Shown here: positions 24,233 through 26,550 of the stretch, one piece after another
Layout: each line of letters opens with the position of its first letter
Position numbering within the stretch: position 1 is the stretch's first letter
NCBI RefSeq assembly: GCF_900142875.1
Contig: NZ_FRCK01000007.1
Location: 62,001 to 126,000, forward strand
Reading direction: 5' to 3'
DNA from: Paracoccus solventivorans
GTDB taxonomy: Bacteria; Pseudomonadota; Alphaproteobacteria; Rhodobacterales; Rhodobacteraceae
DNA: 64,000 nucleotides
Translations under genes and position numbers: made by a program
The notes under the pieces: model-generated
Told to the model about the DNA's origin: nothing
The model's database searches: none
Seen by the model: the letters and a program-made list of their open reading frames with translations, nothing else

Positions 24233-24577
24233 TCAGCAGGTGCAAGTGGGCGGGCGCAGCACGAAATGCCGGTCCAGCACATTGTCGAGGCTGAAAGCCG
24301 CCCCCCGCCCCGGCACCGCATCCACGATCAGGTCGGTGTCGGCCCATGCGGCGGCCTGCGCGCCACCGGTCCAGAAGGGCGCATCGCCGATCTGGCCCAG
24401 CTGCACGTCGTGGCTGCCGATGCGGAATTCGCCAGCCGGATAGACCATCGGCGCGCTGCCGTCGCAGCAGCCGCCCGAGAGGTGGAACAGGACCGGCCCG
24501 TGCGCGGCCTCGATCTCGGCCAGCAGGTCTTGCGCGGCTTGGGTGGCGGTGATGCGGTTCATGCGAGGCTTTTCCAT
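24233..24577 (-). CDS. DUF779 protein
   Basis: A 114-residue protein with the DUF779 core LFHLSGGCCDGSAPMVYPAGEF and a C-terminal PPTCTC that is typical of the family and suggests metal or disulfide chemistry. In other bacteria DUF779 genes often sit beside aldehyde dehydrogenases (hence 'AdhB-associated'); here the neighbour is a metallohydrolase linked to quinoprotein dehydrogenases, so an aldehyde/alcohol context is plausible but inferred. The start may be the ATG at 24577, two bases after the upstream stop, or at 24562. Confidence 0.8.
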   Translation of the reverse strand: MEKPRMNRITATQAAQDLLAEIEAAHGPVLFHLSGGCCDGSAPMVYPAGEFRIGSHDVQLGQIGDAPFWTGGAQAAAWADTDLIVDAVPGRGAAFSLDNVLDRHFVLRPPTCTC

Positions 24578-24579
24578 GC

Positions 24580-25632
24580 TCAGTCCCATTCCATTTCGGC
24601 GTAAGCGGTGGCGGCGTTGCGGGCGGTGGTGGCGGTGAAGTCCTGCCAATGATCGGCCAGCGGCTGCATCGCCGCCAGCACCGCCGGCACCGCGTCCGAC
24701 AGCCCCAACCCCGCGTCCAGCGCCGCCCGCACCGCATCGCGCAGCCCCGCCAGATACTGCGACTGCGCCGCCGCGGCCTCGGCAAACGACGCCGCCACCG
24801 GCCCGTGGCCGGGGATCACCGGCGCGCCATCCGGCGGGGCGTCCAGCCAGCCCAGCCAGCCCTTCAACGAGCCGTCCACCACCGGGGTCAGCCCGCGAAA
24901 CACCAGATCGCCGGTGAACAGCGCCCCCGTGGCATCGTCGCGCACGGTCAGGTCGGCGTCGCTATGGGCGCGCGGCGCCGGGGTCAGGGTCAGGCTGCGC
25001 CCGCCAAGGTCCAGCGTCTCGGGCGCGGAAATGGTGCGGTCGGGCTGGACCAGCACCGTCCCCGCCCAAGGTCCCGCCCCGATCTGCGCCGGGATCGATT
25101 CGGCCCAGGTTTCGCTGCGCGCGGCCAGCGCCTCGGGCAGGCGGGCGTCGGCGATGATCTCGGCCCCGGCTTCGGCAAAAACCTCGGCCCCGGCGATGTG
25201 GTCGGGATGCGGGTGGGTCAGGATCACCGGGCCGATTGGCAAATCAGTCAGGCGGGCGATGGCGGCGAACAGCGCCTCGCCCTGTTCGCGAGAGCCGCCG
25301 GGGTCGATCACCGCCACCCGCTCCTGCCCGACGACCACGCCCAGATTGGCGATCCAGCCGCGGTTTTCGGGGGCGATGCCGGCATCGGCGCCGCGGTGAA
25401 CATGGACGCCGGGGGCGACCTCGGCCAGTTCCAGCGCCGGCGCCTGAGACAGGGGGGCGCAGCGCCAGCCCTGCCCGGTCAGCGCGGGATGCGCCGCCAG
25501 CCAGCGGGCGGAAAGCGCCTCGGCCCCGGCCTCACACGCGGCGGCATCCGGCGCCCCCCCGGCGGGCAGCAGCCGCGGCGCGCAGCTTTCGGGCGCGGCG
25601 GCGAGGCAGGCGGTCAGGATCAGCGCATACAT
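24580..25632 (-). CDS. quinoprotein relay system zinc metallohydrolase 2 (SoxH-like MBL fold)
   Basis: A 350-residue exported metallo-beta-lactamase-fold protein. It has a short signal sequence (MYALILTACLAAAP), a Cys-containing N-terminal extension, then HRGADAGIAPENRGWIANLG and the metal motif LTHPHPDHIAG. Later ligands include FTGDLVF and PGHGPV. The pattern matches the family named for its link to PQQ-dependent dehydrogenases and to SoxYZ-like carriers. Its reaction is not known. It is divergent from the SoxYZ-like carrier gene with 126 bases between, and followed by the DUF779 gene. Confidence 0.82.
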   Translation of the reverse strand: MYALILTACLAAAPESCAPRLLPAGGAPDAAACEAGAEALSARWLAAHPALTGQGWRCAPLSQAPALELAEVAPGVHVHRGADAGIAPENRGWIANLGVVVGQERVAVIDPGGSREQGEALFAAIARLTDLPIGPVILTHPHPDHIAGAEVFAEAGAEIIADARLPEALAARSETWAESIPAQIGAGPWAGTVLVQPDRTISAPETLDLGGRSLTLTPAPRAHSDADLTVRDDATGALFTGDLVFRGLTPVVDGSLKGWLGWLDAPPDGAPVIPGHGPVAASFAEAAAAQSQYLAGLRDAVRAALDAGLGLSDAVPAVLAAMQPLADHWQDFTATTARNAATAYAEMEWD

Positions 25633-25758
25633 GAGGGCGCAGTCTATGCGAGCCCGCGCCCCTGCCGCCCCCGTTATCCGCCGCTTACGACTTTCGTCGG
25701 GGTCGCGCGGGCGGGCGGCGGGGGTCACCATCGGCAGAGCAGCCGCCAAAGGTTCGCC

Positions 25759-26550
25759 ATGCCCGCCCCTCTGTCCATCCTGCGCAATACCCTTGCCCTG
25801 CTGGCGCTGGCCGCCGGCCCAGCGCTGGCCGACAACCCCCTGCAACCCTCGCCCGCGTGGGAGGATATGCGTTCCGCCGTGATCGGGACCGAGGCGGAGC
25901 CGCCGCTCGACCCGACGATCCTGACGCTGGAAGCCCCGCCCCGCGCCGACAACCCGGCGCTGGTCCCGGTGCGCATCACCCAGCCGCCGGACGCGCCGCG
26001 CATCGTGAAACTGGCGCTGGTGGTGGACCAGAACCCCGCCCCCGTGGCCGGCGAGTTCAGCTTTGGCCCCGCCACCGCGCCGCTGGATTTCGAGCTGCGC
26101 GTCCGCGTCGACGCCTATTCCGACATCCGCGCCATCGCCACGCTTGAGGACGGGCGCCAGATCATGGCCGGACGCTTCGTCAAGGCCTCGGGCGGATGCG
26201 CGGCCCCGGCGGGCGGGGGGCCTGACCCCTATGCCGGGATCGGAGAGATGCGGTTCCGCAGCGAACCCGCCGACGGGCGCGCCATGGGCACGCTGATGAT
26301 CCGGCACCCCAATTTCTCGGGGTTGCAGCGCGATCAGGTGACGCTGCTGAACATCCCGGCCGAGTTCGTGCAGACCGTGGTGCTGGAACAGGGCGGCGAG
26401 ACCCTGATGACGATGGAGGGCGGGATCTCCATTTCCGAAAACCCGGTGTTCCGGCTGGGCTACCGCCCCAACGGAGCCGAATTGACCGCACGGGCCGAGG
26501 ATACCGAGGGCCGGGTCTTTCAGGCGACATTCCCCGGCGCCGGCGGCTAG
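25759..26550 (+). CDS. quinoprotein dehydrogenase-associated SoxYZ-like carrier protein
   Basis: A 263-residue periplasmic protein that fuses a SoxY-like front with a SoxZ-like back half. A signal peptide (LLALAAGPALA) is followed by the SoxY-like domain (WEDMRSAVIGT...LTLEAPPRADNPALVPV). The carrier cysteine is Cys147 in VKASGGCAAPAGG. The SoxZ-like domain (MIRHPNFSGLQRD...) ends the protein. In SoxYZ the cysteine carries sulfur intermediates; what this family carries is not known. No PQQ dehydrogenase, cytochrome c or sox gene is within the window. Confidence 0.83.
   Translation: MPAPLSILRNTLALLALAAGPALADNPLQPSPAWEDMRSAVIGTEAEPPLDPTILTLEAPPRADNPALVPVRITQPPDAPRIVKLALVVDQNPAPVAGEFSFGPATAPLDFELRVRVDAYSDIRAIATLEDGRQIMAGRFVKASGGCAAPAGGGPDPYAGIGEMRFRSEPADGRAMGTLMIRHPNFSGLQRDQVTLLNIPAEFVQTVVLEQGGETLMTMEGGISISENPVFRLGYRPNGAELTARAEDTEGRVFQATFPGAGG

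Follow-up and report, generated by a model that had tools for sequence, protein, structure and literature searches.

A SoxYZ-like carrier, its hydrolase and a DUF779 gene as the probable edges of a former PQQ gene cluster in Paracoccus solventivorans

Why do a SoxYZ-like carrier gene, a SoxH-like hydrolase gene and a DUF779 gene stand side by side in Paracoccus solventivorans, with no dehydrogenase near them? They lie on a stretch of 64,000 nucleotides (hereafter the window; C4:62001-126000 of a genome of 3.37 Mb in 27 contigs, 99.5% complete). The original prediction, made from the sequence of the window, had read them as one set of the kind that accompanies dehydrogenases dependent on pyrroloquinoline quinone (PQQ) or aldehyde dehydrogenases, and had suggested that it serves a dehydrogenase encoded elsewhere. 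The three genes are real and were correctly named, as a TIGR04557 carrier with Cys147 (25759..26550, + strand), a TIGR04559 hydrolase (24583..25632, - strand) and a DUF779 gene (24233..24562, - strand). Carrier and hydrolase are indeed divergent, with a 126-bp gap between them, and DUF779 follows the hydrolase after 20 bp on the same strand. The absence of a dehydrogenase from the window is likewise borne out, as neither a PF01011 match nor a relative of ExaC (E ≤ 0.001) was found in it, the three PF01011 matches and 11 ExaC matches of the genome all being outside. I consider it probable that the trio is what remains at the edges of a larger cluster for PQQ synthesis and use, with the carrier and hydrolase serving the PQQ system in trans and DUF779 stranded from its partner ExaC.

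The gene order of relatives bears directly on this. The sample consists of 42 loci, namely 40 hand-picked loci from the genus (12 with fairly close genes and 28 others), locus L083 and the window; the genus set as a whole comprises 125 genomes, and all named relatives are Paracoccus. The common order in these relatives is argC-DUF779-ExaC-regulator-hydrolase <-> pqqABCDE-carrier. ExaC stands between DUF779 and the hydrolase in 36 of the 42 loci. The region between the divergent hydrolase and carrier (25633..25758), only 126 bp long in the window, measures ∼3.4–3.6 kb in 34 of the 42, and all 34 have pqqB, C, D and E there, the last of them directly followed by the carrier on the same strand. 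Of the 41 loci scanned for pqqA (all but L220), 32 have a recognisable copy next to the hydrolase.

Against this background, none of the intervening genes is left in the window and L211, and these are the sole two of the 42 loci in which DUF779 and the hydrolase are in contact. Only a topoisomerase IB gene is left between the two in L212–L215; the topoisomerase, ExaC and the regulator are kept in L083, and pqq is still present in L216–L218. Among named species, P. alkenifer (L281) is arranged as the window is, and P. chinensis and P. salipaludis have the topoisomerase only. A tree of the locus, obtained by a short search and with Shimodaira-Hasegawa-like approximate likelihood ratio test (SH-aLRT) support only, nests the window within this series: window and L211 group with a support of 100, these and the topoisomerase-only loci with 95, and the ten-row clade with 100. 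L083 and L221 also lack the pqq block at this site, and more than one lineage is without the block between regulator and hydrolase. The window would then hold the two edges of the former argC-DUF779-ExaC-regulator-hydrolase <-> pqqABCDE-carrier cluster. In the ancestors of the species the middle genes would have left the site, and the topoisomerase gene of the relatives would have gone as well. By this comparison, the loss would have brought the carrier against the former pqqA promoter region, and DUF779 would touch the hydrolase because ExaC left the site. A separate feature of the region is that some loci (L219, L220, L222, L236, L240, L242, L243, L245, L248 and L250) have an FlhA-like alcohol dehydrogenase gene (28–30%) between DUF779 and ExaC, where other relatives carry topoisomerase IB.

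The affinity of DUF779 to ExaC extends beyond the genus. The gene matches PF05610 far above the gathering cut-off (121.5 bits against 25; E 1.8e-35), is the only copy in the genome, and has no signal sequence visible by eye. DUF779 is present in 13 of the 147 genomes of the family searched outside the genus, and each of these has an ExaC homologue of 73–82% identity near it on the same strand, at a distance of 160 bp or less in 11 and of up to 2.9 kb in the other two. In the loci where the two genes are close (L088–L100, L216–L250 and L083), DUF779 comes after ExaC, often directly. This context, an adjacent aldehyde dehydrogenase, is usual for DUF779 although it is not part of the family definition, and it is absent here, since ExaC is on C15 and DUF779 on C4. 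One locus (L089:10974-11754) has two tandem DUF779 genes directly after ExaC, close to a PQQ alcohol dehydrogenase gene set. Within the genus, DUF779 is found in 103 of the 125 genomes, including 10 of the 23 without a PQQ dehydrogenase over the cut-off. The placing of DUF779 in the same functional set as the pair is therefore not upheld, given its company with ExaC in 13 of 13 genomes of other genera and in 36 of 42 genus loci. Most likely it stands outside the carrier and hydrolase unit and serves ExaC, presumably a cytoplasmic acetaldehyde dehydrogenase, from a distance. The idea of a set serving a distant dehydrogenase thus survives for carrier and hydrolase, with the PQQ system as client, and is not supported for DUF779, whose ExaC is on C15.

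An alignment of 56 DUF779 sequences has HxSGGCCDG as its invariant core, and the CTC tail, which the original prediction had mentioned, lies outside the conserved columns. As a functional mark the tail was rejected, its last C being absent in four of four near relatives aligned, and I give it no weight. The structure model of DUF779 (mean predicted local distance difference test score, pLDDT, 54, from a five-row alignment) was too poor for a structure search, and a search of solved structures with DUF779 returned a single match with an E-value of 0.07.

What became of the middle genes can be followed in part. The ExaC of this genome, encoded on C15 together with its regulator, forms one clade with the cluster copies of L083 and L216 (SH-aLRT 95), which L217 and L218 then join (98); judged by its sequence, it is the cluster lineage in a new place. 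The pqq genes had a different fate. pqqA to pqqE of this genome are on C2, and its PqqE falls in one group with those of G397, G410, G447, G469, G477, G262 and G411 (98), apart from the group of 35 rows from the cluster (98). Forcing this off-site group together with L216–L218 is 113 log units worse and is rejected by the approximately unbiased (AU) test (p 0.0002), in trees that are short searches, with the off-site group defined after the tree had been seen and L233 excluded for short coverage. Relocation of pqqABCDE from the site to C2 was considered and is rejected on these PqqE trees. The pqq operon of the site is, on this phylogeny, probably lost, with another pqq lineage on C2, and carrier and hydrolase stayed behind. 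Some members of the genus have the second pqq lineage, away from the usual location, as in L288 (the C2 region of this genome), L278, L265, L266, L268–L270 and L276, and the operon seems to have been replaced in the clade that has it. The conclusions on the pair and on DUF779 do not depend on whether pqq was moved or replaced.

If the pair remains in use, partners are expected elsewhere, and the search for xoxF and pqq genes that had been recommended did find them, in the form of XoxF on C18 and pqqABCDE on C2. The C18 gene encodes a XoxF-type PQQ dehydrogenase, a methanol-oxidising enzyme, over the TIGR03075 cut-off, with vicinal cysteines at 139-140. Its neighbours are a cytochrome, a MoxJ-like protein, PQQ-associated propeller and ABC (ATP-binding cassette) genes, and a class III alcohol dehydrogenase. 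The PF01011 matches on C14 (L003, L005), in a 494-residue frame and with weak scores, were set aside as a BamB-type propeller, identified by eye. A dehydrogenase operon with a carrier of its own, which had been named as a finding that would weaken the link, was not found: the genome has one fused carrier over the cut-off, and the fetched stretch around xoxF (L004) gave no carrier match. In the same stretch, the open reading frame (ORF) at L004:4016-4575 has no CXXCW motif.

The association of carrier and PQQ dehydrogenase across genomes is strong, counting carriers over the TIGR04557 cut-off and dehydrogenases over that of TIGR03075. The carrier is found in 90 of the 125 genus genomes, of which 89 have a PQQ dehydrogenase, against 13 of the 35 others (Fisher p 1.8e-14). 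The corresponding figures are 24 of 26 against 23 of 123 in the family (p 1.1e-12) and 15 of 20 against 36 of 220 in the class (p 8.8e-8), with the three sets overlapping slightly and the genomes being related, so that the draws are not independent. Genomes with the pair and without a PQQ dehydrogenase over the cut-off, which had been proposed as grounds for refuting the link, are therefore rare (1/90, 2/26 and 5/20 carrier genomes). The fetched carrier locus itself includes a PQQ dehydrogenase in 13 of the 26 family genomes and 12 of the 20 class genomes (one of them a contig-end fragment), in stretches of 3.5–19 kb. The genus also has 21 lower-scoring carrier copies (151–169 bits; the sole copy in three genomes), at least 19 of which are within ∼2.1 kb of a PQQ dehydrogenase. 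Together with the adjacency of the pair to xoxF or pqqE in relatives and the XoxF on C18, this makes a distant dehydrogenase the likely client of the pair. Both family exceptions look decayed: G286 has a carrier and no dehydrogenase, its hydrolase is interrupted by a frame change and its pqqE has two in-frame TAG codons, and in G259 the dehydrogenase gene has three stops and no pqqE is over the cut-off. These breaks may be sequencing errors. As a separate observation, three family genomes (G349, G364 and G336) have carrier and PQQ dehydrogenase with no pqqE over the cut-off, and are possible users of outside PQQ.

Both proteins of the pair score over the cut-offs of their families. The carrier scores 233.8 bits to TIGR04557, over a cut-off of 140 and along the entire profile (1-226 of 226), contains the Pfam SoxY and SoxZ domains, and has a signal-like N-terminus (by eye). 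Its Cys147 (codon 26197-26199) is in a GGC motif, in the linker after the SoxY domain, and is invariant in the carrier alignment (A3). The motif is present in 70 of the 71 carrier ORFs extracted, the exception (L087) being a split SoxY rather than a fused carrier. The structure predicted for the carrier (pLDDT 73) has its best PDB matches in the SoxY chains of the Paracoccus pantotrophus SoxYZ complex, with a template modelling (TM) score of ∼0.8 by target. The hydrolase scores 323.4 bits to TIGR04559 (cut-off 280), contains the Pfam Lactamase_B domain, and does not qualify as a subclass B1 metallo-beta-lactamase (42.3 bits to NF033088 against 200). Across 70 hydrolases, each of its zinc ligands (H140, H142, D144, H145, H223, D242 and H276) shows conservation of 99% or more; the complete dizinc ligand set of the family is kept, and hydrolysis of a relay substrate is its predicted role. 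All three genes of the trio are under purifying selection, with ratios of nonsynonymous to synonymous substitution rates (dN/dS), between the window and L211 by the Nei-Gojobori method, of 0.18 for the carrier, 0.23 for the hydrolase and 0.23 for DUF779.

Two further regions of the genome contain SoxYZ-like genes. A split SoxY/SoxZ-like pair is encoded at L087:9609-10466 (C2:65827-66426), outside the sox-like cluster on C15, and scores 108 bits to TIGR04557 when read through the stop between both genes. The cluster on C15 (L101; C15:510000-528000) resembles canonical sox genes and has its own SoxYZ (identities by eye), and given this cluster the organism may oxidise thiosulfate.

The divergent region may retain a control element of the former cluster. 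A palindrome, CGACTTTCGTCG, lies at 25688..25699, in a similar place to that of relatives in which pqqA, not the carrier, is divergent. It is the only perfect match to CGACYTTSGTCG in the 64 kb. Among 41 loci, 30 have the palindrome with no more than two mismatches, comparably positioned ahead of pqqA, the motif having been derived from the same loci in which it was counted. It appears that the carrier took over the pqqA promoter region after the pqq operon left the site. Upstream of the genome's own pqqA there is a palindrome with one mismatch (L288:12051), one of three such in 18 kb. In L004 the sole match with up to one mismatch is inside xoxF, and of the 13 matches with two mismatches in 19 kb, one is in the xoxF-xoxG gap. 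A shared regulon through the palindrome is only suggestive in this genome. A simple scan for promoters and terminators found nothing. L289 and L290 entered the palindrome scan only, and L291–L294 were left out of the analysis.

Could the trio be what it seems, a genuine new unit of this clade, in which DUF779 was recruited to the hydrolase operon? The 20-bp spacing on one strand, the same arrangement in P. alkenifer and the selection on all three genes would suit it, as would the correlation between DUF779 and carrier (DUF779 is present in 86 of the 90 genomes that have a carrier and in 17 of the 35 that lack one). I nevertheless regard it as very unlikely: the contact is confined to two of the 42 loci, sister loci are intermediate, with topoisomerase or ExaC in between, the usual partner ExaC persists elsewhere in the genome, and by eye the carrier looks exported whereas DUF779 has no signal sequence. 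Still less credible is a non-functional relic awaiting loss. G286 may exemplify such decay, without a PQQ dehydrogenase and with broken hydrolase and pqqE genes, but the frames of the window are intact, the catalytic residues are present, dN/dS is about 0.2, and the genome has both XoxF and a pqqABCDE set. That carrier and hydrolase remain a working pair, acting in trans as one unit for the PQQ system and most likely for the XoxF encoded on C18, is suggested by co-occurrence and purifying selection.

What the pair does is less certain. My tentative picture, somewhat short of an even chance, is that the exported carrier loads Cys147 with a cargo that is nucleophilic, sulfur-based or an adduct linked to PQQ, that the hydrolase releases it, and that PQQ and the vicinal-cysteine enzyme thereby stay functional. 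Section 15 of PMC12997753 raises two ideas, that the proteins help to form the vicinal disulfide or stabilise the cofactor, and that they guard PQQ against sulfur nucleophiles; two alternatives of comparable, rather low probability correspond to these. The carrier could swap thiols with the adjacent cysteines of a XoxF-type enzyme, with the hydrolase resolving mixed species, and so mature or repair the disulfide. The cysteines are there in the XoxF of this genome, the pair is often beside FlhA-FGH-XoxF-XoxG-XoxJ in other genera of the family, and the lower-scoring carrier copies adjoin PQQ dehydrogenases. However, most genus loci examined place the carrier after pqqE rather than a dehydrogenase gene, a metallohydrolase is no obvious disulfide enzyme, and according to the same section P. 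aeruginosa lacks the pair despite having the same disulfide in ExaA. The pair could otherwise shield PQQ from sulfur nucleophiles (sulfite, thiosulfate or persulfide), the carrier trapping and the hydrolase clearing a putative sulfur cargo. The SoxYZ fold, the apparent canonical sox cluster (by eye) and the third of the three solved-structure matches of the hydrolase (hydroxyacylglutathione hydrolase, 2xf4) agree with this, as does a proposal of PQQ-sulfur adducts in H. denitrificans which that section reports. The gene order strengthens the case for a role centred on the cofactor: with the carrier after pqqE, the hydrolase divergent from pqqA, and both under selection after the pqq swap, the pqq link of the carrier directs attention to PQQ no less than to the dehydrogenase. 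An unlikely extension of this, clearly behind the two just described, draws on the pqqABCDE-carrier row and makes the carrier a periplasmic PQQ carrier. Cys147 would then bind PQQ through a thiol adduct at the reactive quinone carbonyl until the cofactor is delivered to apo-XoxF, and the hydrolase, transcribed divergently from the shared control region, would release adducts that had become stuck. That the carrier outlasted the replacement of the pqq operon would be in keeping with recognition of PQQ and not of the Pqq enzymes.

Several observations weigh against the reading of the trio as a cluster edge with a pair working in trans. PQQ dehydrogenases occur without a carrier over the cut-off in 13 of 102 genus genomes. 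Conversely, G130 (97% complete) and G485 (86% complete) have carrier and pqqE with no PQQ dehydrogenase over the cut-off, G155, G087 and G191 have the carrier with neither PQQ dehydrogenase nor pqqE over the cut-off, and G181 has the carrier and a dehydrogenase fragment at a contig end. The correlation of DUF779 with the carrier is what shared linkage would give, and yet is compatible with a functional tie. The pqq link is broken by replacement and not by a simple move, and the locus tree rests on sequences of the locus and is not a species tree. Disruptions of PP_2677/PP_2678 in P. putida had minimal alcohol phenotypes without rare earths, according to section 15 of PMC12997753. For the pair, family membership, residues, gene order and co-occurrence are observed, whereas export of both proteins, the client and the cargo are inferred.

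With the odd trio as a probable product of rearrangement, two modules that annotation would otherwise join become separable, and the link of the quinoprotein-associated SoxYZ-like carrier to PQQ synthesis genes provides a lead on its role. The order with the carrier after pqqE and the hydrolase divergent from pqqA was not found described in the literature searched, seen in part, with partial coverage and few subscription journals; further papers cited beside that search are PMC11582611, PMC12423496 and PMC6548844.

The closest known system is the ped cluster of Pseudomonas putida, whose PP_2677/PP_2678 are examples of TIGR04557/TIGR04559 and resemble the pair of the window in curated cut-offs and in association with PQQ alcohol dehydrogenases. 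The ped pair lies between pedG and pedH; the pair of the window has no dehydrogenase near it, and in most genus loci examined the carrier follows pqqE. A SoxH-type gene with FlhA/AdhI and XoxF is also known (PMC5934484) in the xoxF5 clusters of a Roseobacter and of Rhodobacter sphaeroides with soxH and adhI, and the same is seen here in family loci; unlike in those clusters, hydrolase and xoxF of this genome are on different contigs. With the SoxYZ of thiosulfate oxidation in P. pantotrophus the carrier shares the SoxY and SoxZ folds and the GGC cysteine. It differs in being a fused chain with an internal cysteine, where canonical SoxYZ has two chains and a C-terminal GGCGG arm, in scoring below the cut-offs of true SoxY and SoxZ (56.2 against 125 bits for TIGR04488, 47.3 against 76 for TIGR04490), and in standing apart from the sox-like cluster of the genome. 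DUF779 follows ExaC in relatives as in known ExaC and DUF779 pairs, one of which, an aldehyde dehydrogenase with DUF779, is reported in a PQQ gene cluster of Azospirillum brasilense (PMC12826043), whereas the ExaC of this genome is on another contig. The carrier and hydrolase of the window are ordinary in kind, a module already known to accompany quinoproteins and one that here probably works from a distance.

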